A program made the translations under genes and the position numbers. The notes under the pieces were generated by a model. That model was not told the DNA's origin. It was given only the letters and a program-made list of their open reading frames with translations, and searched no databases. Below, piece after piece: positions 6,117 to 44,616 of a stretch of 64,000 nucleotides of DNA. The stretch is from positions 558,001 to 622,000 of the forward strand of contig NZ_CAAHFB010000001.1 in the NCBI RefSeq assembly GCF_900880625.1, written 5' to 3'. This stretch comes from Halorhabdus rudnickae (GTDB lineage Archaea; Halobacteriota; Halobacteria; Halobacteriales; Haloarculaceae). The stretch's first letter is position 1. The number at the start of each line of letters is the position of its first letter.

Positions 6117-6301
6117 GTCACTATACAACACAATAAATGAGGCCAGTCTCGGTGCGTGGGCCGACTGGGTCTCCCATCGAGAGGAGACAGAGACTCGTGT
6201 GGCGCCGCTCACACCTAATCACGCAACAATCGCTGGATTGTAGACGCTAGGCTGAGGTATGACTTGATGATTGCCCGATCTGGACTGCAGGTTCGAGAAG
6301 A

Positions 6302-6308
6302 TTTAAAT
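6302..6308 (+). promoter_or_regulatory. TATA box of leuA
   Basis: TTTAAAT is preceded by a purine-rich BRE-like stretch (CGAGAAGA). It predicts a transcript start near 6328-6332, which would make the ATG at 6336 nearly leaderless and leave about 25 untranslated bases before the TTG at 6355. Confidence 0.6.
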
Positions 6309-6354
6309 ACGCCGACGCCATCCCAACGAACGCAAATGTCCAACACATCCGAGG

Positions 6355-7560
6355 TTGCGTCGGGATCCCCGGCGGATCGAGTTCTTCCAGGGCACACTCG
6401 ATAGTACGTCCGAAATCACGGACGCACGGATTTTCGATACGACGCTTCGCGACGGGGAACAGACGCCGCGCACCTCGTTTTCTTACGAAGATAAACGAGA
6501 AATAGCGGCGCTACTCGACGAAATGGGCACCCACGTCATCGAGGCTGGGTTCCCCGTCAACTCCGACGCGGAGTTCGAGGCGGTGCGTGACATCGCCGAA
6601 AGTACCACGACGACCACCTGCGGGCTCGCCCGCGTCGTCGAGGAGGACGTCAAAGCGGCCATCGACTCGGGCGTCGAATTGGTCCACGTGTTCGTCTCGA
6701 CCAGCGACGTCCAACTCGAGGACTCGATGCACGCGACCCGCGAGGACGCCGTCGAGCGGGCCGTCGAGTCAGTCGAGCGCGTCAAGGAGGCTGGTGTCGA
6801 GTGCATGTTCTCGCCAATGGACGCGACCCGTACTGACGAGGACTTTCTGCTCGATGTAGTCGAGGCCGTCACCGAGGCGGGCACCGACTGGATCAACATC
6901 CCCGACACGACCGGCGTCGCGACGCCCGGTCGCTTCACGGAGATAGTTGGCAAAGTCGTCGCCCACACGGACGCCCGCGTCGACGTCCACACCCACGACG
7001 ACTTCGGGCTGGCAACGGCCAACGCTCTCGCAGGCTACGAGGCCGGCGGCGCACAGGCCCAGGTCAGCGTCAATGGCATCGGCGAACGCGCTGGCAACGC
7101 GGCCTACGAAGAAGTAGTCATGGCCGTAGAAAGCCTGTACGACGTGGATACGGGCATCGACACGACTCAGATCACCGAACTGTCCCGACTGATCGAGGAA
7201 AAAAGTGGCGTCGACACGCCGGGCAACAAACCCGTCGTCGGCGAGAACGCCTTCTCCCACGAGTCGGGCATCCACGCCGCGGGCGTCATCGAAAACAGCG
7301 ATACGTTCGAACCTGGCGTGATGACTCCCGAGATGGTCGGTGCCGAGCGCGAACTCGTCTTGGGCAAGCACACCGGTCAGCACTCGGTCCGGGAACGACT
7401 GGTCGAGGCCGGGTTCTCGCCGTCGGACAGTGACGTACGAGAAGTAACCCGCCGCGTCAAGGAGTTCGGTGCCGAGGACAACCGCGTCACGATGGACGTC
7501 CTCGAACGGTTCGCACGCGACGTGGGCGTCGAGCAGACACGTGAGGAGGTCAGTGCCTGA
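6355..7560 (+). CDS. leuA: 2-isopropylmalate / (R)-citramalate synthase family
   Basis: A 401-residue DRE-TIM metallolyase. It has the catalytic FDTTLRDGEQTPR motif near the N-terminus, the HTHDDFG metal-binding motif and the family signature around NGIGERAGNA. It condenses acetyl-CoA with 2-oxoisovalerate (leucine branch) or pyruvate (isoleucine branch); it lacks a long C-terminal regulatory domain, so sequence alone does not decide the substrate. The start is uncertain: the conserved N-terminus (RRIEFFQGTLDST) is in frame with a TTG at 6355, while the leaderless-position ATG at 6336 is in another frame that stops at 6404. A one-base shift would join them. It stands at the head of the leu/ilv cluster. 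Confidence 0.88.
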   Translation: MRRDPRRIEFFQGTLDSTSEITDARIFDTTLRDGEQTPRTSFSYEDKREIAALLDEMGTHVIEAGFPVNSDAEFEAVRDIAESTTTTTCGLARVVEEDVKAAIDSGVELVHVFVSTSDVQLEDSMHATREDAVERAVESVERVKEAGVECMFSPMDATRTDEDFLLDVVEAVTEAGTDWINIPDTTGVATPGRFTEIVGKVVAHTDARVDVHTHDDFGLATANALAGYEAGGAQAQVSVNGIGERAGNAAYEEVVMAVESLYDVDTGIDTTQITELSRLIEEKSGVDTPGNKPVVGENAFSHESGIHAAGVIENSDTFEPGVMTPEMVGAERELVLGKHTGQHSVRERLVEAGFSPSDSDVREVTRRVKEFGAEDNRVTMDVLERFARDVGVEQTREEVSA

Positions 7561-13506: not shown

Positions 13507-14058
13507 TCACCGGTCTACGGTTCGTCGGTCCCCAAGTGCGACCTCGAAGGCGTCTTCGTCGTCGAGTTCGGCTACGACTGCGTCGAGTTCTCGTTTCAGC
13601 GAGTCGAGTTCTGCGTCGGTTGCTGTCGGTTCCCCGTCGGCCGTCGCTTTCTCGTCGTTACGTTCGTGTCTACGGGCGAGTTCATAAAATCGGGTGAGCA
13701 GTCGGTCGTATCGTGCCCGTCGCTGTAGCCGTTCGACGATCTTGCGGGAGGCGTCCTCGATACGATCGAGATCGAGGACTGCGTCAGCACGACCGGCGAC
13801 GGATCCGTCCGAGCTACCCAGCCACAAGATCTGAAAGGAAAGTTCATCCGATGCACGCGCCACAAAGAGATCCGACGGCGGCCCTTCCATGGATTCGTCG
13901 ATGACGGTTACGGCAATCGAGGCGTCGAGGCTGTCCAGCGCGCTGTCGAGCGTCGTCGCGATCCGGACAGGCCAGTGGTCTCTGAGAATCGACGTGATCG
14001 ACAAACGTCGTTTTTCCTCCGGAGAGGCGACCAACACAGCGTCCTGCGTCGAGGGCAT
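13507..14058 (-). CDS. HalX-type regulator with a receiver-like domain
   Basis: A 183-residue protein. The N-terminal 110 residues resemble a receiver domain but the motifs are weak: the acidic pair is not obvious, and the candidate phosphoacceptor is the Asp in VTVIDESMEG. The C-terminal part (RYDRLLTRFYELARR onward) is the helical HalX domain found only in haloarchaea. I start at MPSTQD (14058); an upstream ATG at 14076 is possible. It lies about 90 bases downstream of the DUF7504-type gene on the same strand, so the two may be co-transcribed. The receiver may work without phosphorylation. Confidence 0.75.
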   Translation of the reverse strand: MPSTQDAVLVASPEEKRRLSITSILRDHWPVRIATTLDSALDSLDASIAVTVIDESMEGPPSDLFVARASDELSFQILWLGSSDGSVAGRADAVLDLDRIEDASRKIVERLQRRARYDRLLTRFYELARRHERNDEKATADGEPTATDAELDSLKRELDAVVAELDDEDAFEVALGDRRTVDR

Positions 14059-14145
14059 CGTGCAGAAGAGTATCACGGGCAGCGACCAAAATGATCGGGG
14101 CGCGATCGGTGGACCGGAGCGACGGGGGGCTTGCGTCGAGGCGCT

Positions 14146-14742
14146 TCACTCCGAACGAGAGTCCGCACAGACCGTTGCGTCGAACAGCGGTGCTAGCGTA
14201 TCGAACGTCCGGTCAGGATGGCCGTCAGCGTCGATGTGATAGTGTGCGATCGCGCCGGCTTGCTCGACCCGCGCGGTGAGCACGTTGAGGAAGCGATGGA
14301 GCGTGCGTTCGGACTCGAACTGCAAGAGATCCGTCAACGAATCGATACAGACGACGACGGGGCCCTGATCGGCGTTCTCGAGTTGCGTGGCGAGCTCGCT
14401 TCCGATACGCTGGAGATCGACGTCCTCGACCTCGGCAACGTTGACAATCGCACCGTTCTGACCGCCGAACCCGTCGGCCGACATCGCCGCGGACCGACCG
14501 CCGTGGGAAACGTCGACAAACGATAGCGTGGTTTCGACAGGGTCGATTACGGTACTCCACTCGGACATCCGTTCGCCGGGAGAGGACGCGATCGTCACAC
14601 TGAGGACCGTCCCGGGCGCTCCCGCGCGGGTCAACAGGTCACGACAGTGTTGGTTCTTCGCGTTACCGATCGCCGGACAGACACAGAGGACGTTTGAGAC
14701 TGTTTCGGCAGCGTCGACACCCTGCGAGAGCTCGTCACTCAT
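14146..14742 (-). CDS. RecA/KaiC-like haloarchaeal protein (DUF7504 type)
   Basis: A 198-residue cytoplasmic protein whose pattern resembles a degenerate RecA/KaiC core: an N-terminal strand (NVLCVCPAIGN) without a usable Walker A lysine, and a Walker B-like strand (GPVVVCIDSLTDLLQF) followed by a helix. Proteins of this kind are common and multi-copy in haloarchaea; I place it in the DUF7504-type group from memory. The role is unknown, with signalling suspected because of its neighbours (HalX gene downstream, CHAT protein nearby). It is transcribed divergently from the 14999 gene across a very AT-rich spacer. Confidence 0.7.
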   Translation of the reverse strand: MSDELSQGVDAAETVSNVLCVCPAIGNAKNQHCRDLLTRAGAPGTVLSVTIASSPGERMSEWSTVIDPVETTLSFVDVSHGGRSAAMSADGFGGQNGAIVNVAEVEDVDLQRIGSELATQLENADQGPVVVCIDSLTDLLQFESERTLHRFLNVLTARVEQAGAIAHYHIDADGHPDRTFDTLAPLFDATVCADSRSE

Positions 14743-14879
14743 AGACGAACCCTCCCGGGGGCACCGTAAGTATTTCTCTCATTTGTGTTACCTACCAACG
14801 ATTACAATACTAACAATTAAGTAAGTTACGGGAGGGGCTATCTACACGTTCGCACCGGCGAAAGAAGGCATTGTGCGGT

Positions 14880-14975
14880 CTCCTCTCTTCGTATCCCATA
14901 TTTATATATTTAATATTACCTAACCTTACATTAATTATATAATTATTAAATATCTTTAGAAATTCATTTTCAACC
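14880..14975. promoter_or_regulatory. very AT-rich divergent promoter region
   Basis: The stretch around 14896-14965 is almost entirely A and T, with several overlapping TATA-like runs (ATTTATATATTTAATATT and TTATATAATTATTAAATA). It separates the DUF7504-type gene (minus) from the small membrane protein gene (plus). It could carry promoters for both and would melt easily. Confidence 0.5.
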
Positions 14976-14998
14976 CAGCAATAAAGTGGAGAGTGGCT

Positions 14999-15139
14999 AT
15001 GAGCCAATCAGAATCGGAGGGAGAGAACTTCCTCGCAGAGCACCCGCGAATGATCGGCGTCCTGTTCATGCTGCTCGTGTTGCTAACGCAGTTCGGAGGG
15101 ACGGCAGCAGCAATCAGTAGTGCCAATCCAGGCCCCTAA
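14999..15139 (+). CDS. 46-residue membrane protein, DUF7503-like
   Basis: A small ORF that begins with ATG at 14999 and encodes MSQSESEGENFLAEHPRMIG, then a hydrophobic segment (VLFMLLVLLTQFG) and a short AAAISSANPGP tail. The pattern of an EHPR motif, one membrane helix and a final GP matches the short haloarchaeal DUF7503-type proteins as I recall them. The stop overlaps the 3' end of the CHAT gene on the other strand by four bases. It lies between the DUF7504-type gene and the CHAT gene, so a shared role is likely but unproven. Confidence 0.7.
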   Translation: MSQSESEGENFLAEHPRMIGVLFMLLVLLTQFGGTAAAISSANPGP

Positions 15140-17259
15140 ATCTCGGACTGCATTTCTTTACTCCAGACGAGTTGCTCCTCGTACAAGACTGGGAAGTCAC
15201 CGTTCTCACAGAGACGGTTGAACTCCTCACTAGTCATTTCCACGTTTTCGAGAGATGCCATCACTAGGCAATTCGCTTCGAACGGGGAAAAGTGCCAATC
15301 ACGTAGACTCCCGTTTGAGATGTCTGAAATGGGGTATCCCTGGATGTCCAAGTCCAGCATGTCTGATTCGATGGATTTCAATTCCATGTGCAAGGGCGCG
15401 CCCATTTGGCTCTCGACGATGTTCGCGTGTCCGTCCCCCACGACCATATACCGGCTTGCGAGTTGCTCGTCTTCCTCCAACAAGGTCCGTGCCGTCGAGA
15501 GCGAGAAACCGCTGTCCAGTAATCGAGCCAATGTTTTCCCGACGCTCGTCGCTGTCGGGTTCGGAATGTTCGCGAGCGTGACGATCCCACCCAGCGCGCC
15601 GGCATCTACCAGTTCCCGGCCCTGCGCGTATGAGTTACACGCGTTGAGCAGGAACGCGCCAACGCCGACATCAGAAAGGGATCGCGCGTCAAGATGTCCA
15701 TCGGCACACCGGAATCCTTCGTCCTCGACGTGGCCGATGTAGTGGAAAAAGTCCGTCTCCTCCTGTAGTACGTCGGCAAGTTCGGCTTGCGTCAACTCCT
15801 CGTGGATCGTGACGTCGAAGTCGATCCAATCTCTGGCGCCGTAGACATTCGAGACGACGGACTCGTCGCTCATCGCATCCTCGTTGTTCACCACGTCGAC
15901 AGAGATCCGTCCGGATTCCGTCGGTTCGTACTCGAGACGCCGTTTGAACGCGTCGAGGGTCATCTTCGTCGCGCCCATCGGGATCCCGTCGCCGACGAAC
16001 GTCTGCATCAGGCTGTCGGCCGGTTCCGGCCGGAACACGCGCTCCTCGACTGACGGCCGACTCGTGGTACTCTCGGATCGGACGGCGGTGGACGGCCCCC
16101 TGAGCAGGACCGGCTCGTCGCGAAAGAGCGACTCGACGTCGGGGGACGTGTCTTCGAGGACTCGCGGCGTGATATTGCCACGGCGTGGACAGCGAATCTC
16201 TGCCAGATCGGCCGCAAGGAACGAGAGGACCGGAACGTTTTCGGCTTCAGGCTGGACATCGGCGGTCAGCTTCCACTCCGGCGACACGGGTTCGACCACT
16301 TCGAACGGAACGTCGAGATACGCTCCGGTGCGCTCGGCGAGAGACTGGTTGTACAGCGCCTCGAAATCCAGCGTTGTCCGCTCCTCGAGTATCGACCGTT
16401 CGCGCAGATCCACATTGTATAGCCCTTCGGTCCGCGTGACACAGTCAAGCGTGAAGACGTGTCGCAGAATGCGTGCCACGTGCTGCTCGAAGCCGTCCGG
16501 TCCATCCAGCGGGATTGATCGCCCGTCGGCGACCAATCTAGGTCGGGCACCCGGTTGGATGTCCGCGTCGAGATAGTACGCCAGCGGTGCGGCGGGGATG
16601 ACGCGGTCCCACCGGTCCGGTACTTCGATTGAGACGGACGGTTCTCGGTCGACAAAGCCGCTCGGGACCGACAGTTCCTCGCCTCGTTTCAGCACGGGAG
16701 GATGGCCGCGCAACGTCGGGAACGACCGCTCGGGAGAAGTCGTCTTTAACGCCGCTCTGAACTGGGAGAGCGCAGTCATCACGTCGTCGATGTCGTCGGT
16801 CGTCGTGATGGTACGGGCCGGTTGTTCGTGATACGAACGGATGCCGACGATCACCTCGGTCGCTTCCGGAAACGATAGTTCGACGTAATCTCCAGTCGCA
16901 TCGACCGAGAAGGCTCCCTCGATGCCAAGATACAGTTTGAGTTGAACGGAGGAGAACTCTACGACGTAGCTGCCCGGATCGAACGCCGCTTCGTCGCCAC
17001 CCGTACACTGTGCGACCAGGTCGAACTCCGCGTCCCTGATCCAGACCCCGACGAGATACGGGGTCCGGACGACATCGACGTCGACCGAAACGGCGCTGTC
17101 GACGGGAATCGGTAGCGCATCGGAGGAACACGGTGTACACTCGACCGGTTCGGCCGTCAGCAACGTGAACCGCCCGCCGTCGATCGGATCGACGAGGTGG
17201 ACACCTGGCGGTGTCTGCAGCGTCTCGAACCGCGGTTCTGAGGACGGGACTGCGGTCAT
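15136..17259 (-). CDS. CHAT-domain (caspase-like) protein
   Basis: A 707-residue protein. Residues 1-450 have no domain I can name and look beta-rich in the first 150. The C-terminal 230 residues are a CHAT domain with the catalytic His510 in DFFHYIGH and Cys541 in LLNACNSYAQG, in the usual strand-end positions. The peptidase family is related to caspases and separases, and bacterial members act in defence and cell-death pathways. The start overlaps the upstream small membrane-protein gene by four bases (ATGA), so both are translated together. Targets and trigger are unknown; the catalytic pair appears intact. Confidence 0.85.
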   Translation of the reverse strand: MTAVPSSEPRFETLQTPPGVHLVDPIDGGRFTLLTAEPVECTPCSSDALPIPVDSAVSVDVDVVRTPYLVGVWIRDAEFDLVAQCTGGDEAAFDPGSYVVEFSSVQLKLYLGIEGAFSVDATGDYVELSFPEATEVIVGIRSYHEQPARTITTTDDIDDVMTALSQFRAALKTTSPERSFPTLRGHPPVLKRGEELSVPSGFVDREPSVSIEVPDRWDRVIPAAPLAYYLDADIQPGARPRLVADGRSIPLDGPDGFEQHVARILRHVFTLDCVTRTEGLYNVDLRERSILEERTTLDFEALYNQSLAERTGAYLDVPFEVVEPVSPEWKLTADVQPEAENVPVLSFLAADLAEIRCPRRGNITPRVLEDTSPDVESLFRDEPVLLRGPSTAVRSESTTSRPSVEERVFRPEPADSLMQTFVGDGIPMGATKMTLDAFKRRLEYEPTESGRISVDVVNNEDAMSDESVVSNVYGARDWIDFDVTIHEELTQAELADVLQEETDFFHYIGHVEDEGFRCADGHLDARSLSDVGVGAFLLNACNSYAQGRELVDAGALGGIVTLANIPNPTATSVGKTLARLLDSGFSLSTARTLLEEDEQLASRYMVVGDGHANIVESQMGAPLHMELKSIESDMLDLDIQGYPISDISNGSLRDWHFSPFEANCLVMASLENVEMTSEEFNRLCENGDFPVLYEEQLVWSKEMQSEI

Positions 17260-17438
17260 AGGTGGCTGAACGACGGCGACCCGTCGACGTGCTGACGGCC
17301 CGTGTCTACCGTCCTGTCGGGGACGTCAGCTAAAAAGGGTTCTGACGGGAGAAAACCTGCAAAGAGGAATACCACGCCGTTCAAAAAGAGTGTCAGTACC
17401 ACCGCGATCAGTTTCTGAGCGAACGTCATTCGAGTCAT
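17256..17438 (-). CDS. small membrane protein upstream of the CHAT gene
   Basis: A 60-residue protein with one strong membrane helix (LIAVVLTLFLNGVVFLFAGF) and a polar tail. An internal ATG at 17429 (MTFAQK) is an alternative start. Its stop overlaps the CHAT start by four bases, which implies a coupled pair. It could be a membrane tether or regulator of the CHAT protein. No homologous family is recognised. Confidence 0.6.
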   Translation of the reverse strand: MTRMTFAQKLIAVVLTLFLNGVVFLFAGFLPSEPFLADVPDRTVDTGRQHVDGSPSFSHL

Positions 17439-34986: not shown

Positions 34987-35927
34987 TGCCCAATGAATGG
35001 AAAGTTCTGACACGGGTTATCGAACAGGACTCAGCGTTTGAGTTTACCGATGGCGATTACGAGCAGTACATGACCGCTGTTTCTGAAGCGTATGCTGACG
35101 CAACAACGAGGTGTGAAGGAGCTCCTACAGCAGAAGATGAGTATCATTCCTTCTTAGTAGAAGAAGTTCTGTCCGATGACCGAGTATTAGCGGTTTTAGA
35201 GGACGCAGACGTTCCCTCCTCTAAGATCAGTTCTATCCATAATGGTACGATCGATTTGGAGGGTTCAGTTGACCAGTGGAATGAAATTCGGTTCACCCTT
35301 AATGAACTCCTTGACCTTCTGATGCTCCTGAAGCTGATTCGTGACTATTCGGAAGAGAGCAATTCAAAACGAATCGAATCTAGATTCAAGCTTCAGAAGC
35401 TCATCTACCTAGTGAATAATAATCTGATGAATCAAGAAGACTACTCAATGGACAAGAACCGATTTGGACTCCTCAGTAAAACCGGATACCGATATCACTA
35501 CTCTAACCGTGAGTCAGGTCCATATTCTGAGGAAGTCTACGAAGACAAGAATCGGCTCTTTGCGTGGGGTCTGATTGATGAACCAGTAACAGATGCTGAT
35601 GGCACGGGAGAGGTAGCAGAACGAAACCGACAGTATGCCATCGAACTCTCTGCTCAAGGCGAGATTATGGTTGAGAGATTCTACAACCAAATTGAGAGCA
35701 CAGACAGTTTCATCATTAGTGCATGGAATAATGCACAGACGGAAGAGATTCAAAAGGTGGCAGAGATGACTCATTCAGAACTAATGGAGCACGTGAACAA
35801 GATAGACGGTGTCCAGACGACTGCCAAAGGCGGTGAACTCCTGATCGGCCCGGAAAACAAGTTCCAGGAAACGGAAATAGAGTACTTGGAGGAGCTTCGA
35901 GGAGAGTTCGAATATGCCCGATCGTGA
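34986..35927 (+). CDS. YwgA/DUF4065 (Panacea)-like protein, third gene of the SMC operon
   Basis: A 313-residue protein. The N-terminal 110 residues are an unrecognised helical domain. Residues about 130-240 carry the pattern FKLQKLIYLVNN, then RYHYSNRESGPYSEEVYED and RLFAWGLI, which is typical of YwgA and the phage-associated DUF4065/Panacea fold. Panacea domains neutralise toxins and YwgA-like ones occur in ABC-type multi-component defence loci. Here it may be the regulatory or middle component between the membrane protein and the SMC ATPase. The start overlaps the previous stop by one base and its end overlaps the SMC gene by 14. Confidence 0.65.
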   Translation: MPNEWKVLTRVIEQDSAFEFTDGDYEQYMTAVSEAYADATTRCEGAPTAEDEYHSFLVEEVLSDDRVLAVLEDADVPSSKISSIHNGTIDLEGSVDQWNEIRFTLNELLDLLMLLKLIRDYSEESNSKRIESRFKLQKLIYLVNNNLMNQEDYSMDKNRFGLLSKTGYRYHYSNRESGPYSEEVYEDKNRLFAWGLIDEPVTDADGTGEVAERNRQYAIELSAQGEIMVERFYNQIESTDSFIISAWNNAQTEEIQKVAEMTHSELMEHVNKIDGVQTTAKGGELLIGPENKFQETEIEYLEELRGEFEYARS

Positions 35928-37944
35928 CGAGGTAATCAACGAGATCCTGGAGCGGGTCTCCAACGAAGGGGTTCCAGATGAACATATGGATCTCTGTGAG
36001 TCCCTTCTGATGGACAACTATGGGAGTCTTGAGTATACAGTTGATAAGTTGAAGCTCCAACACTTAGACATCGAGAATTTCAGGGTGATTGATGGGGATT
36101 CTATTGATTTCAGTAACGAGAAAACGATCTTGTTTGGGGAGAATGAAGAGGGGAAAACAAGCTCATTAGAGGCTGTCCGATTTAATCTCCTTGGGCTGCA
36201 AGAGGATCAGCGGATCAAGCTCACAGGACCAATTCGAGATGGTAAGTCGGCGCTTTCCACGACTGGGAACTGGTCAGTAGATGGATCTGACCATTTGATT
36301 CGACGAACTCTAACTAATGGTAGCGGTTACACCGAAACTATTCGACTTAACACAGATCCACAAGACTTGAATGATATTGGGTGGGGTAGTCCGAATACCC
36401 AAGAAGAAGTTTCACGAGCCGTTGGGCTTTGGCCGATTGAGTCCAAGCAACTTGGAAGATACAATACATTCTCTCTGTTCTGCTTGATGCCAGGTAATTT
36501 CAAGATATTCTTGAAATGGCAGAAGAAGAGCAAATTTATCGATATGCTCTTCGGGATAAATCTTGCTTCCGTCATCACTGAAAGTTCTCGATACCGCAAT
36601 AACGAACTTGAATTATCAGAGGACGAGAAGACTGCCGCAGAAGATCTTGCTGACGTGGAAAGTAGGATATCCAACCTCCAAGAAGACTTAGAGGATCTTA
36701 GCCAGGATAAAGAGAACGTAGAAGCGAGACTTAATGATCGTAAATCAGAACTTCGTAGAGTCCAGGAATTACTGGGTGATAAAGATGAACTCGAGGACTT
36801 AGAAACGCAAGAGACAGAGATCAAAAGGCAGATCAATAAGCTTCAGGACGAGCGTCAGGAGCATCTATCCGAACTCAGGGCAGTCGAGCAGAAGATTAAT
36901 CGGTACCAGGAGATGGACATGGGGGAGCATCTTCATGAACCTTCCCAGGAACTTCAGAAGTTTATGAGTGTCCCGGATAGATGTCCGATTTGTACAAATG
37001 ATGTTGATGACGATCAGCGTCGTCGACTCTTGAACGATGGAGATTGTCCTCTCTGTAGAAAAAGCGTTCCGTCGGATCGTATTGAAATTGGGACGGAACG
37101 GGACGTTGAGGAAAAGATCGTTGAACGCGAACAACGAGAAGAAGCGTTGGAAGAAGCACTGGAACAGCGGCAACGGATTGATGGAGAAATAGAGTTCCTT
37201 GAGTCTCGTATCGACGATTACGAGGAGGAACTTCAAAACGTCAGATCTCAGATTCAACAATCGGATGAGAAAGAACTGCTCGACAGGAAAGACGAATTGC
37301 GGTCTACTGTGGAGGACTTGGAGCAGAAGGCAACCAATATACAAATCGATCTTAATGCTAGGACTGAGAAGATTGAGGACCTACGAGACGATCGCCTCCC
37401 TGAGCTAGAAGAACTCTACGAGAGTAGGAAGGAGAAGGTCGAGAAAAAAGATTCCCTCAAAACATTTGAGAGAGTTGTTCAGAACCAAATTAATAGAGAA
37501 CGCGAAGGGATAAGAGAGAATCTGGCGTCGTCGATGAAGAAGCTCTTAAACTTGTTCGAAAAAGGGACGTTCTCTGACGCCTTTGACGTAGATTTCAGTT
37601 CAAACGGCGGATATGAATTCACTATCCGAGTTCGGGATGGAGACGACATACCCTCTAATCGACCGAATGAGAACTCTAATGAGGGCAAACTTACGGCCCT
37701 TCTGTTCCACACAGCTATACTCGAACAGTTGATGGAACACGACGAGACGCTTCCACTTCGTCTATTCATCATTGATTCCCCCTATTCTGAGTCACCAGAT
37801 ACTCGGAACACACCGGATATCACAAACTTCCTTCAGCAACTCCCCCAAATCCTTCCAGAATTCCAGCTTATTCTTGGGATTGCAGACACCGATATGGCTG
37901 ACATAGATACATTTTCCGACCAATATAATATAGTTGAGTTCTAA
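35914..37944 (+). CDS. Rad50-like SMC ATPase with zinc-hook, fourth gene of the operon
   Basis: A 676-residue protein. Residues 60-90 contain a Rad50-type Walker A (FGENEEGKTSSLE, residues 74-86; GENEEGKTS with Asn before the lysine loop). Two long coiled coils (about 235-345 and 395-540) flank a central zinc-hook-like site with CPIC (357-360) and CPLC (378-381). The C-terminal part has a Walker B (LRLFIIDSPYSES). It is much shorter than Rad50 and carries a 60-residue N-terminal extension before the ATPase. Small SMC proteins of this build are the motor of Lamassu and ABC-3C systems. It should bind DNA ends or ring-shaped DNA. Confidence 0.85.
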   Translation: MPDRDEVINEILERVSNEGVPDEHMDLCESLLMDNYGSLEYTVDKLKLQHLDIENFRVIDGDSIDFSNEKTILFGENEEGKTSSLEAVRFNLLGLQEDQRIKLTGPIRDGKSALSTTGNWSVDGSDHLIRRTLTNGSGYTETIRLNTDPQDLNDIGWGSPNTQEEVSRAVGLWPIESKQLGRYNTFSLFCLMPGNFKIFLKWQKKSKFIDMLFGINLASVITESSRYRNNELELSEDEKTAAEDLADVESRISNLQEDLEDLSQDKENVEARLNDRKSELRRVQELLGDKDELEDLETQETEIKRQINKLQDERQEHLSELRAVEQKINRYQEMDMGEHLHEPSQELQKFMSVPDRCPICTNDVDDDQRRRLLNDGDCPLCRKSVPSDRIEIGTERDVEEKIVEREQREEALEEALEQRQRIDGEIEFLESRIDDYEEELQNVRSQIQQSDEKELLDRKDELRSTVEDLEQKATNIQIDLNARTEKIEDLRDDRLPELEELYESRKEKVEKKDSLKTFERVVQNQINREREGIRENLASSMKKLLNLFEKGTFSDAFDVDFSSNGGYEFTIRVRDGDDIPSNRPNENSNEGKLTALLFHTAILEQLMEHDETLPLRLFIIDSPYSESPDTRNTPDITNFLQQLPQILPEFQLILGIADTDMADIDTFSDQYNIVEF

Positions 37945-40806: not shown

Positions 40807-42114
40807 TCACCAATAGATGGCGACTATTTGCGATTCGATTTGGAGGGGATCGTCATCTGTTATTTCTCCTTCGGTACTCATAGACGTGTATTCGTCGAAT
40901 ATCATGTAGTCAGTAGCCTCCGCTTCATCTCCTTTCGAGAGGGTGACATCGTGGTCCCGGAGATACGCTGCATAATCAGAGTAGAAGTCAATCAGTTCTG
41001 TCCCAGCAGATGGAGAGAGTGCAGGAATTCCCTCTTTGACTACATACTCAGTCATGAATTGCCGGTGAAGGTCGTCCCCGACTTCATCAAGGCCTGCTCG
41101 CTCATCAAATTCCGCAAGCGTATCTATCCAATCACATAGGTCCACATCGTCACTGGTCTGATTGTCCGCCTCCTCTTTGGCGAGGGCCGCCGCACGTTCC
41201 ATAAACTCGGTTAATAGCTGAGCCAGCGGCGGGGAGACCGTTTCGATTTTTTGTGCGAGGCTCAGCGGGTGCCACGACTCTTCGTCATATATCTCCTCGA
41301 CACGGCAGAAGATTGTGTATTCTTCCTCGTCAAAAAGGGCATCAGGAACGTCTTGCCAGAGCTTCAGCGCATTCAACTGACCCACGATACGAAGCGGCTC
41401 TCCGTCGGAATCGTCCGGGTCACCAGACTGAATTCGCCCATCCCTCACCTGGAAACCGAGAACGCGTCCACTCACTGGAATCTCCGTTCCAAACATCGAC
41501 TCAATAAGCTTCAGTACATCTTCGTCCTCTGGACCGACTGCCTCGGGAATATTCTCTTGAAGATACATCATAACCTTATAAAACCGATACAGGTAGTGCG
41601 TATCCAATTCAACATCAACCCGTAGAATTTTTCCTCGGGTTACTTTGGACACATCTACCTCAATTCTCTCCGCAGCATCAATGAGACCGATATCCTCGTC
41701 ATGCTGCCGATGCTGATCTAACTGATCGAAGAGCGACTGAATCGCGTAGTTGTGTACCACTTCAGAGGAACTCTCCCCCATTTCCACCTGCTCGCCCTCT
41801 ACCTTCGCGCCTACTCCAGAAATACTCGCATTCACACCACCAGCAACACGCTCCGTTGACCGACTCCCAATCTGCTCAATCCGTTCCTGCTTGATGGCAC
41901 CCTCGATCGACGCAAGAAGACTCACAACACTATCTCGATCCAGATAAACAAACTCCCGGAGCTCCCTCTCGTACCTACGATCGTCTGCTTCAACATCTGG
42001 TTCTCCGTCACTGGATTCCCCGGTAGACCCGCTCTCCGACGACTCACCGCTAGGAGATTGTTCGTCTCCAGTCTTTCTGCCCAGTAGATTCGAAAGCCGA
42101 TCTCTAAATCCCAT
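40807..42114 (-). CDS. DUF6414-family protein
   Basis: A 435-residue acidic soluble protein. An acidic Ser-rich N-terminal tail of about 45 residues precedes a core that begins REFVYLDRDSVVSLLASIEG, a pattern I associate with DUF6414. There is no catalytic motif I can name and no membrane helix. It starts one base into the stop of the upstream AAA ATPase gene, so the two are a tightly coupled pair, and it is probably the substrate or partner of that ATPase. Function is unknown. Confidence 0.7.
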   Translation of the reverse strand: MGFRDRLSNLLGRKTGDEQSPSGESSESGSTGESSDGEPDVEADDRRYERELREFVYLDRDSVVSLLASIEGAIKQERIEQIGSRSTERVAGGVNASISGVGAKVEGEQVEMGESSSEVVHNYAIQSLFDQLDQHRQHDEDIGLIDAAERIEVDVSKVTRGKILRVDVELDTHYLYRFYKVMMYLQENIPEAVGPEDEDVLKLIESMFGTEIPVSGRVLGFQVRDGRIQSGDPDDSDGEPLRIVGQLNALKLWQDVPDALFDEEEYTIFCRVEEIYDEESWHPLSLAQKIETVSPPLAQLLTEFMERAAALAKEEADNQTSDDVDLCDWIDTLAEFDERAGLDEVGDDLHRQFMTEYVVKEGIPALSPSAGTELIDFYSDYAAYLRDHDVTLSKGDEAEATDYMIFDEYTSMSTEGEITDDDPLQIESQIVAIYW

Positions 42115-43361
42115 TAGTCTGCACCCTCCTCAGCTTCTTGCTCTCGTCGTCGTTGCGCCTCCTTGTTATTGATTTGTGCCTGCACTCTCTCATATGCACG
42201 CTCGACATCCATTCGATGAATCGTCGGGGTCCCCTCCCGGTCCCGTTCTTCCTTCAAGAGAATCTCCCCAATCTCCCCGAACAATGACTCAATATGAGCA
42301 CCCGTCCATCCTTCCGTCTTCTCCACAAGGTTATCAAGTGACACGGTATTAGCAAATTCAATATCCGGTTTGTGGATGTCGAGAATTTCTCGCCTGCCTT
42401 CACGTGATGGGCGATGGAATTCGATCTCGCGTCCAAACCGGCCAGGGCGTCGGAGTGCTGGATCAATTGCCTCTATCAAATTGGTCGTCCCGACGACTAC
42501 CACCCGACCGCGATCCTCAATGCCATCCATCAGCGATAGCAATTGACCGACGGTTCTGCGGCCAGAATCCATCGTCTTGTCTCGTCGTGGTGCTACAGAA
42601 TCAATCTCGTCAAAGAAGATGATCGCTGGCGGGTTGTTCTGGGCCTTCTCGAATACCCCGCGAAGTAACCGCTCCGTCCTTCCAACCAATTCGGCAGACA
42701 GCTCTGGACCCCGGATACTGTAAAACAACGCGTCCTCTACCTGGTTGGCGACTATTTTCGCCAGATATGTTTTGCCGGTTCCTGGCGGGCCGTAGAACAG
42801 TACGCCTTTCGGAGCATCCATTCCGACATCTTCGAACCGCTCTGGTTCCTTGAGCGGGACTTCTACCTTGTATTTCACTTCCTCCACAACCTCGTCCATC
42901 CCACCGAAGTCTGAATATTGCTTGTTAGGGACGTTATCCGGGTCAAGATCAGATGGATTAGTATCGTTCACTTCGCGCCCCAGATTTTCTCCGTCATTAC
43001 CAAGGTCAACGATATCCTCCTCAAACACCTTGTAGAACTCTCCAAGGTCCGTCAGCAGCACGCCATCACCAGGTGAAACATCTACATCTGGTTTCGAGAG
43101 AATTCGTTTCCCTGTCTCTGTCTGCACCAGTAGATGCTCACCAGTGCTCCTCTCAACAATTGCATGTTGACCGGCTGGATCGTCCTCTCGTGCAACTCTT
43201 TTTGCTTGGTCCCTCCCGTATTGATTTGCCACTTCGACGAAGTCGCCGGGAGTTACTTGCCGCGAAATATCGTTAGCAACTCGAATGATATCGCCGTTGT
43301 CGTTAATCAATAGATGCTGGCCCTCTGTAGCGAGCACCTGTAACACCCGGTTATCCGCCAT
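42114..43361 (-). CDS. AAA ATPase (PAN/Cdc48-like) with N-terminal beta-barrel repeats
   Basis: A 415-residue protein. Residues 13-105 contain two similar repeats (QHLLINDNGDIIRVANDISR and EHLLVQTETGKRILSKPDVD), each followed by a VxPGD turn, probably OB-like barrels. One AAA domain follows: Walker A GPPGTGKT (191-198), Walker B IIFFDEIDS (247-255), sensor 1 (VVVGTTN) and the arginine-finger region RRPGRFGREIEF. It resembles proteasome-activating nucleotidase and Cdc48, but the C-terminus (EAEEGAD) lacks the HbYX motif that docks the 20S proteasome. It probably remodels a specific partner, most likely the DUF6414 protein. Confidence 0.85.
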   Translation of the reverse strand: MADNRVLQVLATEGQHLLINDNGDIIRVANDISRQVTPGDFVEVANQYGRDQAKRVAREDDPAGQHAIVERSTGEHLLVQTETGKRILSKPDVDVSPGDGVLLTDLGEFYKVFEEDIVDLGNDGENLGREVNDTNPSDLDPDNVPNKQYSDFGGMDEVVEEVKYKVEVPLKEPERFEDVGMDAPKGVLFYGPPGTGKTYLAKIVANQVEDALFYSIRGPELSAELVGRTERLLRGVFEKAQNNPPAIIFFDEIDSVAPRRDKTMDSGRRTVGQLLSLMDGIEDRGRVVVVGTTNLIEAIDPALRRPGRFGREIEFHRPSREGRREILDIHKPDIEFANTVSLDNLVEKTEGWTGAHIESLFGEIGEILLKEERDREGTPTIHRMDVERAYERVQAQINNKEAQRRREQEAEEGAD

Positions 43362-43563: not shown

Positions 43564-44616
43564 TTATGAGTTTGAACCAGTACAGTACTCCGGAGTGGGA
43601 AGTTCGTAGACATTCCGTTCGTAGACATCTCGGACTCGGCCGCCCCAATCGTGAGTGTACGTGTCAATCACGTCTTGGGCGACGTCACCACGGAGGTACT
43701 TGACGATCCCACGATCCCCAGTGCGATCACGGAGGTGTGTCGTGAAGAAATGCCGAAAGTAGTGCGGAGTGACGTTCTCCTCGACGCCACCGCCGTCATC
43801 GTACCAGCCCCACTCCCGCGCATGAGTCGTGACGACGTGATGAACGGCGTCGGTCGTCAGCCGTCGGCCCCAGTTATCTCGCGTACTGACGAACAGCGGA
43901 TCGGCCTGGGAGACAGGATCCGGGCGTACGTCCAGCCACGCTCGAAGCGTCGTCGCCAGGTCGTCGTCGACTGGGATTACTGTATCCCGGCGGCGCTTGT
44001 TGGATGCCGAGCGCTCCTCGCCGTTGATGACCTCTCCGCGCGCCGGTTCGCTGGAGACATACAGCGTGTTCGCCCGGCCCTCCAAACTCGGCCGGATTGT
44101 GACGTCTTCCCGGAGGTCCTCGGCGAGGTGCAGATCACGCTGATCGAGGTTGCAGAGTTCACCGACACGCATTCCTGTTTTCACCAGCGTCACGATCACT
44201 GCCCGCTCAAGAGGGTGAGCGACCCCGTCGACGAACCGCTGCATCGCTTCGATCGAAACGTCACGCCGAGCGGGATCCGAATCGATACTCTCGTCGAGTT
44301 CCTCAACGACAATCGCCATCGGGTTCGATTCGAACGTCCCGATTTGGGTCATATACGAATAAAACCGATGGAGGTACGACGCATACGTGGCGATCGTACT
44401 TTCGGAGTGACCATTACGCTGGTCGTGGATCCAGGCCATACAGTCGCGATGAGTCGCTTCCGCGAGCTCGGTCCTGTCGAGCGAGGCCGCAAAGTCCCGC
44501 AGAACGCGTTCGTAGGCTTCCTGTGTCCGCTCGCTTTTGCCCTGGAAGGCGATGTCGGTCAAGAAGTACTCGATCGGGTCCTCGACGCTCTCAGGAGCAG
44601 TTCTGTCCGTACTCAT
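43564..44616 (-). CDS. XerC/D-like tyrosine recombinase
   Basis: A 350-residue site-specific recombinase. It has an N-terminal SAM-like DNA-binding domain (about 12-100) and a catalytic domain with Arg150 (TGMRVGELCN), His285 and Arg288 (HYFRHFF), His322 or Trp324, and the nucleophile Tyr332 (RVRDVYERN). The whole catalytic set is present. It overlaps the DUF5805 gene by four bases. This recombinase-DUF5805 pair recurs in haloarchaeal chromosomes, so it is more likely a resident enzyme than the integrase of this island. Confidence 0.9.
   Translation of the reverse strand: MSTDRTAPESVEDPIEYFLTDIAFQGKSERTQEAYERVLRDFAASLDRTELAEATHRDCMAWIHDQRNGHSESTIATYASYLHRFYSYMTQIGTFESNPMAIVVEELDESIDSDPARRDVSIEAMQRFVDGVAHPLERAVIVTLVKTGMRVGELCNLDQRDLHLAEDLREDVTIRPSLEGRANTLYVSSEPARGEVINGEERSASNKRRRDTVIPVDDDLATTLRAWLDVRPDPVSQADPLFVSTRDNWGRRLTTDAVHHVVTTHAREWGWYDDGGGVEENVTPHYFRHFFTTHLRDRTGDRGIVKYLRGDVAQDVIDTYTHDWGGRVRDVYERNVYELPTPEYCTGSNS

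Follow-up and report, generated by a model that had tools for sequence, protein, structure and literature searches.

A CHAT-like protein and the DUF7503 mini-protein form a conserved convergent gene pair in Halobacteriales

Two convergent genes, one encoding a CHAT-like protein of 707 amino acids (aa) and the other a 46-aa DUF7503 mini-protein, lie tail-to-tail within a 64,000-nucleotide (nt) stretch of Halorhabdus rudnickae DNA (hereafter the window), flanked by leucine-biosynthesis genes on one side (gene names assigned by eye) and by an ABCE1-like gene on the other. An earlier note on this stretch had placed the CHAT-type gene in a five-gene module, together with a HalX regulator, a DUF7504 protein, a DUF7503-like peptide and a coupled small membrane protein. 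The conserved unit is instead a two-gene pair, CHAT and a convergent DUF7503, whose near-constant association suggests a protease switch not yet described in archaea. The features of the pair in the window are as follows.

15136-17259, minus strand: putative CHAT-like cysteine protease, 707 aa; window open reading frame (ORF), CHAT assignment via relatives, dyad conserved
15730-15732 and 15637-15639, within the CHAT-like ORF: codons of H510 and C541, respectively
14999-15139, plus strand: DUF7503 mini-protein, 46 aa; PF24335, 65.3 bits; protein-level constraint; HPR, hydrophobic helix, AAA, variable tail and Gly-Pro end
14954-14973, plus strand: AT-rich promoter-like element, positions -45 to -26 relative to the DUF7503 start codon, placed from the family-wide pattern

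The two ORFs overlap by 4 nt including their stop codons. The DUF7503 product, MSQSESEGENFLAEHPRMIGVLFMLLVLLTQFGGTAAAISSANPGP, scores well above the curated cut-off of its Pfam model (27 bits); the earlier note was right about the family of this peptide, which lies on the plus strand, convergent with CHAT.

Identity and distribution of the CHAT-like protein

The 707-aa protein, whose intact H510/C541 pair had been recognized in the earlier note, contains the CHAT-type motifs HYIGH (510) and FLLNAC (541). The window protein by itself does not reveal its CHAT-like character, with no family returned for it at E ≤ 1 from Pfam, NCBIfam or PADLOC; the assignment rests on its relatives. PF12770 is matched by 14 of 65 (best E-value 1.8e-8), and an hhalign comparison that sets the 65-row alignment against nine archaeal PF12770 proteins yields a probability of 96.6% (E 5.4e-10, 172 columns), placing H510 and C541 in register with the CHAT dyad. 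Both residues are invariant in the 65 relatives and in all 114 relatives linked to a DUF7503 gene (see below), and each is kept in 30/32 of those without one. Two relatives that have lost the dyad (L099 and L164) are possible pseudo-proteases. The large N-terminal part contains no TPR or other Pfam domain at E ≤ 1, and the nearest named relative, from Halorhabdus amylolytica, is 87% identical. A profile search of the PDB returned a single match, to lumazine protein (E 0.58), which was taken as chance.

CHAT relatives are present in 173/195 Halobacteriales genomes, representing 57 of 66 genera, while a phylum-wide profile search found 50 positives among 294 genomes, four of them (one family) outside Halobacteriales. 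Relatives also occur on 25 plasmid records from nine genera, where NCBI mostly labels them ‘hypothetical protein’ (one is a ‘caspase family protein’ and one a ‘CHAT domain-containing protein’); none is encoded by the 23 viral stretches examined. On one such plasmid, from Halorussus salilacus (L205), the PLSDB table, which is incomplete, lists no coding sequence at 6262-6652 after CHAT; L152, apparently the same plasmid judging from its coordinates and record length, has DUF7503 at the corresponding place.

After removal of repeat records of the same place, and with the window protein replacing L001, the CHAT set comprised 170 unique ORFs, 146 of them near full length (24 that did not span profile positions 120-600 were dropped). 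Two cut duplicates, L101 (of L108) and L093 (of L082), stay among the 146 and are scored as lacking DUF7503 for want of flanking sequence. In a FastTree phylogeny of 145 rows, from which the degenerate L099 was left out, all DUF7503-linked proteins fall into one clade of 124 (the first clade, or clade A), which holds the window protein; no partner is detected by the DUF7503 model for a second clade of 18 proteins, nor for the three rows that come from beyond Halobacteriales.

The conserved pair and its mini-protein

A convergent DUF7503 ORF lies within 500 nt of 114/146 near-full CHAT ORFs (32 without), or 114/124 in clade A. The distance between coding ends has a median of 7 nt and is at most 20 nt in 90 of the 114, with the 4-nt overlap seen in the window recurring in 33. 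The reverse view, based on 60 DUF7503 regions picked among the matches listed and mostly excluding places already collected with CHAT, shows 59 of 62 DUF7503 ORFs facing a convergent CHAT ORF (some of them fragments); of the other three, two sit where their contig ends and one stands by itself. Tightly linked in both directions at the level of loci, the two families also co-occur at the genome level: among 117 genomes searched for both, 95 encode CHAT and DUF7503, five only CHAT, none only DUF7503, and 17 neither (Fisher p 2e-16, not corrected for kinship; two unlisted negatives per family were inferred by elimination). For two of the five CHAT-only genomes (G003, G098) only second-clade CHAT was found, and the other three are assemblies 61-76% complete. 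DUF7503 is almost never alone, while second-clade CHATs mostly lack it, a pattern that suggests dependence of DUF7503 on CHAT and not the other way round.

A few CHAT genes have a diverged mini-protein beside them:

L169, 3653-3853
L170, 6043-6309
L177, 3746-3925
L022, 3546-3722

All four are convergent peptides with HP[RK] (HPR in the first three), a helix and Gly-Pro at or near the end, and are missed by the DUF7503 model; the first three, from the second clade, show a weak match to it or none, and the L022 peptide belongs to clade A.

DUF7503 is a real protein under protein-level selection. Across 84 close pairs, its helix core has a ratio of nonsynonymous to synonymous substitution (dN/dS) of 0.17, and its terminal Gly-Pro shows no amino-acid change (proportion of nonsynonymous differences, pN, 0.000; of synonymous differences, pS, 0.59). 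This dipeptide ends 100/114 copies, with all four codons of each residue in use, and 11 of the copies without it end in Thr/Ala-Ile/Val-x. A stretch of 32 residues runs from the HP[RK] His to the C-terminus in 75/104 copies. The seven residues preceding Gly-Pro are variable and small (2.9% charged); a selection test on this tail gave no sign of an elevated rate of amino-acid replacement (dN/dS 0.25, with dS near saturation). V/A-A-A precedes the tail in most copies, giving an HP[RK]-helix-xAA arrangement that resembles a signal peptide.

Upstream of the DUF7503 start, A+T content at -45 to -26 is elevated in a position-specific manner (0.57-0.87 across the 114 loci); because this AT-rich element sits at a fixed distance before the start, DUF7503 probably has its own promoter. 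The support for a promoter consists of this positional pattern, as the TTWWW motif is not above control (31/114 in the TATA window vs. 50/114 in a control window). TTTTT occurs within 30 nt past the CHAT end at 2/114 loci, and 7/114 have one in the DUF7503 gene itself. With the two genes facing each other across a minimal spacer that lacks a T-run, CHAT and DUF7503 transcripts are likely to overlap and run against one another.

Neighbouring genes

Beyond DUF7503 lie first a DUF7504 gene and then a HalX-like gene; the remaining member of the proposed five is on the other side of CHAT.

14146-14742, minus strand: DUF7504 protein, 198 aa; PF24336, 125.7 bits, E 3.8e-36; divergent from DUF7503
13507-14058, minus strand: HalX-like protein with a degenerate receiver; below the Pfam cut-off; lineage-specific neighbour
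17256-17438, minus strand: 60-aa hydrophobic ORF of the earlier note; probably not a gene; no relative; overlaps conserved upstream DNA

The DUF7504 identification was correct (cut-off 27 bits). Such a gene lies within 1.5 kb of CHAT at 65 of 108 first-clade loci, in 41 of these 65 upstream on the CHAT strand and often almost touching CHAT. Since DUF7504 is found in 112/117 genomes, including many without CHAT, it is at most an accessory. It matches phrog_38159 in PHROGs, where its function is not known. The HalX assignment is weak: the window protein scores 15.8 bits against PF08663, below the cut-off of 23.2, its N-terminal receiver part is, by eye, missing the acidic pair expected of a functional receiver, and HalX-type matches lie near just 14/108 first-clade loci, several of these being other receiver proteins by eye. 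The gene ends 17 nt from leuD, on the opposite strand.

The 60-aa ORF, which the earlier note took for a small membrane protein coupled to CHAT, is probably spurious. It matches no Pfam or NCBIfam family, an iterated profile search of 71 loci recovers only the window copy, and the frame is broken in H. amylolytica despite a CHAT protein 87% identical. It overlaps a CAGAACnCTTTTT-like stretch upstream of CHAT (window ~17330-17345) that is common to five Halorhabdus copies (the window, L002-L004 and L031). Of the outcomes that the earlier note would have counted against it, unconserved catalytic residues are not seen, and independent distribution does not hold for CHAT and DUF7503. With HalX near few loci and the 60-aa ORF not conserved, the five-gene module is rejected, and a sensor-regulator-protease cascade finds no support beyond the Haloarculaceae arrangement; what stands of the proposal is a conserved haloarchaeal module of a putative protease and a tiny, presumably membrane-bound protein, made up of CHAT and DUF7503.

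PADLOC models returned no family at E ≤ 1 for the HalX-like, DUF7504, CHAT or 60-aa products (DUF7503 was not queried). Elsewhere in the window, a low-GC stretch at 24000-45000 looks like an integrated defence island; it contains a phage-type integrase (43564-44616), an AAA ATPase (42114-43361) adjoining a DUF6414 protein, an LmuB-like (Lamassu) ATPase (35914-37944) and a Schlafen AlbA_2 protein.

Interpretation and relation to known systems

DUF7503 is most likely a dedicated membrane partner of a caspase-like protease inside the cell, acting as its regulator or serving as its substrate, and to the reading as a whole, a two-gene protease module with DUF7503 as the dedicated partner of CHAT, we give about an even chance of being right. 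One gene would encode the intracellular CHAT cysteine protease; the other, transcribed toward it from its own promoter, would encode a single-helix membrane mini-protein of ∼46 aa that holds CHAT at the membrane or serves as its substrate, such that a membrane change or an altered supply of DUF7503 would switch the protease on. The opposing transcripts might add an antisense effect, and DUF7504, where it lies directly upstream on the CHAT strand, would be a likely accessory regulator. DUF7503 may restrain CHAT, anchor it or be cut by it.

Six CHAT residues (E177, T277, E278, R288, D524 and Q546) are specific to DUF7503-linked copies, and the DUF7503 tail type (Gly-Pro vs. Thr-Ile-x) associates with CHAT K108R and other positions, though only four independent pairs exist. 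Several points weigh against a dedicated partnership: the linkage of these six residues could reflect ancestry; 10 of the 124 clade-A CHAT genes have no detected DUF7503 (among them L022, with its diverged peptide, and the cut copy L101); and AlphaFold models of the CHAT-like protein, built from two-sequence alignments pairing the window protein with its relative from H. amylolytica, reached predicted local distance difference test (pLDDT) scores of 27 and 37 in two runs, too low to be of use in judging a caspase-hemoglobinase fold. A more sweeping proposal, which we regard as unlikely, is that every DUF7503 is an obligate membrane ligand of its own CHAT, with opposing convergent transcription and a Gly-Pro recognition code, and that these proteases are among the genes missing behind archaeal caspase-like activity and stress death.

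The tiny single-helix protein, the convergent arrangement with its 7-nt median spacing and the near absence of T-runs between the genes would also fit a type I toxin-antitoxin-like system, in which a toxic DUF7503 peptide is silenced by the antisense CHAT transcript and perhaps also cleared by the protease. Such an antisense partner would not, however, need to encode a conserved protease with an invariant dyad, and systems of this type seldom reach near-universal presence across an order, which makes the explanation an unlikely one. The Gly-Pro end (100/114), the 32-residue length (75/104) and the signal-peptide-like HP[RK]-helix-xAA could alternatively belong to an export or translation monitor, in which Gly-Pro-stop, at tunnel length from the helix start, would sense membrane insertion or cause ribosome stalling, and CHAT would be triggered by DUF7503 that is not exported. 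SecM and TnaC are precedents for ribosome stalling, but arrest peptides known so far conserve the residues just before the stall end, whereas the seven residues before Gly-Pro vary freely in DUF7503, and we consider this role quite improbable.

We see a similarly slim chance that the helix is cut after A-x-A to release a secreted signal, a Gly-Pro-ending peptide of 8-9 residues sensed by the module. The V/A-A-A before the tail and the scarcity of charge within it would suit such a peptide, but conservation of the helix goes far beyond that of a usual signal peptide, amino-acid change in the tail is not in excess, and the CHAT protein has no match to a receptor family (Pfam, E ≤ 1). Finally, that the genes are a gene-order relic, conserved neighbours with no functional contact, is very improbable even though the contact proposed between CHAT and DUF7503 comes from sequence comparison: the pair is kept in unrelated contexts, DUF7503 fails to face CHAT in just three of 62 cases among the matches listed, and passive synteny is contradicted by the 35 loci with enough flank, in which no flanking family except DUF7504 is found in more than four.

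Read as a protease and its dedicated partner, the pair, near-universal in Halobacteriales, would be a candidate for caspase-type regulated proteolysis in archaea, with a possible role in stress or in regulated death, and it occurs in genetically tractable organisms. A small protein held tail-to-tail with a putative protease across many contexts is an unusual conserved gene pair, and through this association the function of a 46-aa protein can be put to the test. Searches of the open-access literature yielded no account of the pair.

Several known systems bear comparison. In bacterial gasdermin systems a caspase-like protease is encoded beside a membrane-acting partner, as may be the case here; DUF7503, in contrast, is a 46-aa single helix and no gasdermin, the genes are convergent, and their presence is near-universal in the order rather than patchy. 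The likeness to type I toxin-antitoxin systems is one of gene geometry. With metacaspases and orthocaspases, of which a prokaryotic survey counts 93 archaeal p20 sequences (PMC6426788), the proteins described here share a clan CD dyad, but they match CHAT rather than p20 and occur in most Halobacteriales genomes (173/195). Caspase-like activity has been reported in Haloferax volcanii with no gene assigned, archaea being said to lack clear caspase genes, in the portion of that report available (PMC3615174); this caspase-type cleavage is likewise haloarchaeal, H. volcanii carries DUF7503 (it served as a control of the DUF7503 genome search), and any relation to CHAT is our conjecture.

A further parallel is that of Csx29, a TPR-CHAT protein of type III-E CRISPR systems, which cleaves a dedicated partner, Csx30, via a His-Cys dyad (PMC10028731). 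Unlike Csx29, the haloarchaeal CHAT protein has an N-terminal part without TPR or other Pfam domains, its presumed partner is a 46-aa protein encoded by a convergent gene, and its immediate neighbours in the window include no CRISPR genes; what the two share is a His-Cys dyad (H615/C658 in Csx29, H510/C541 here) together with a dedicated, here putative, partner gene.

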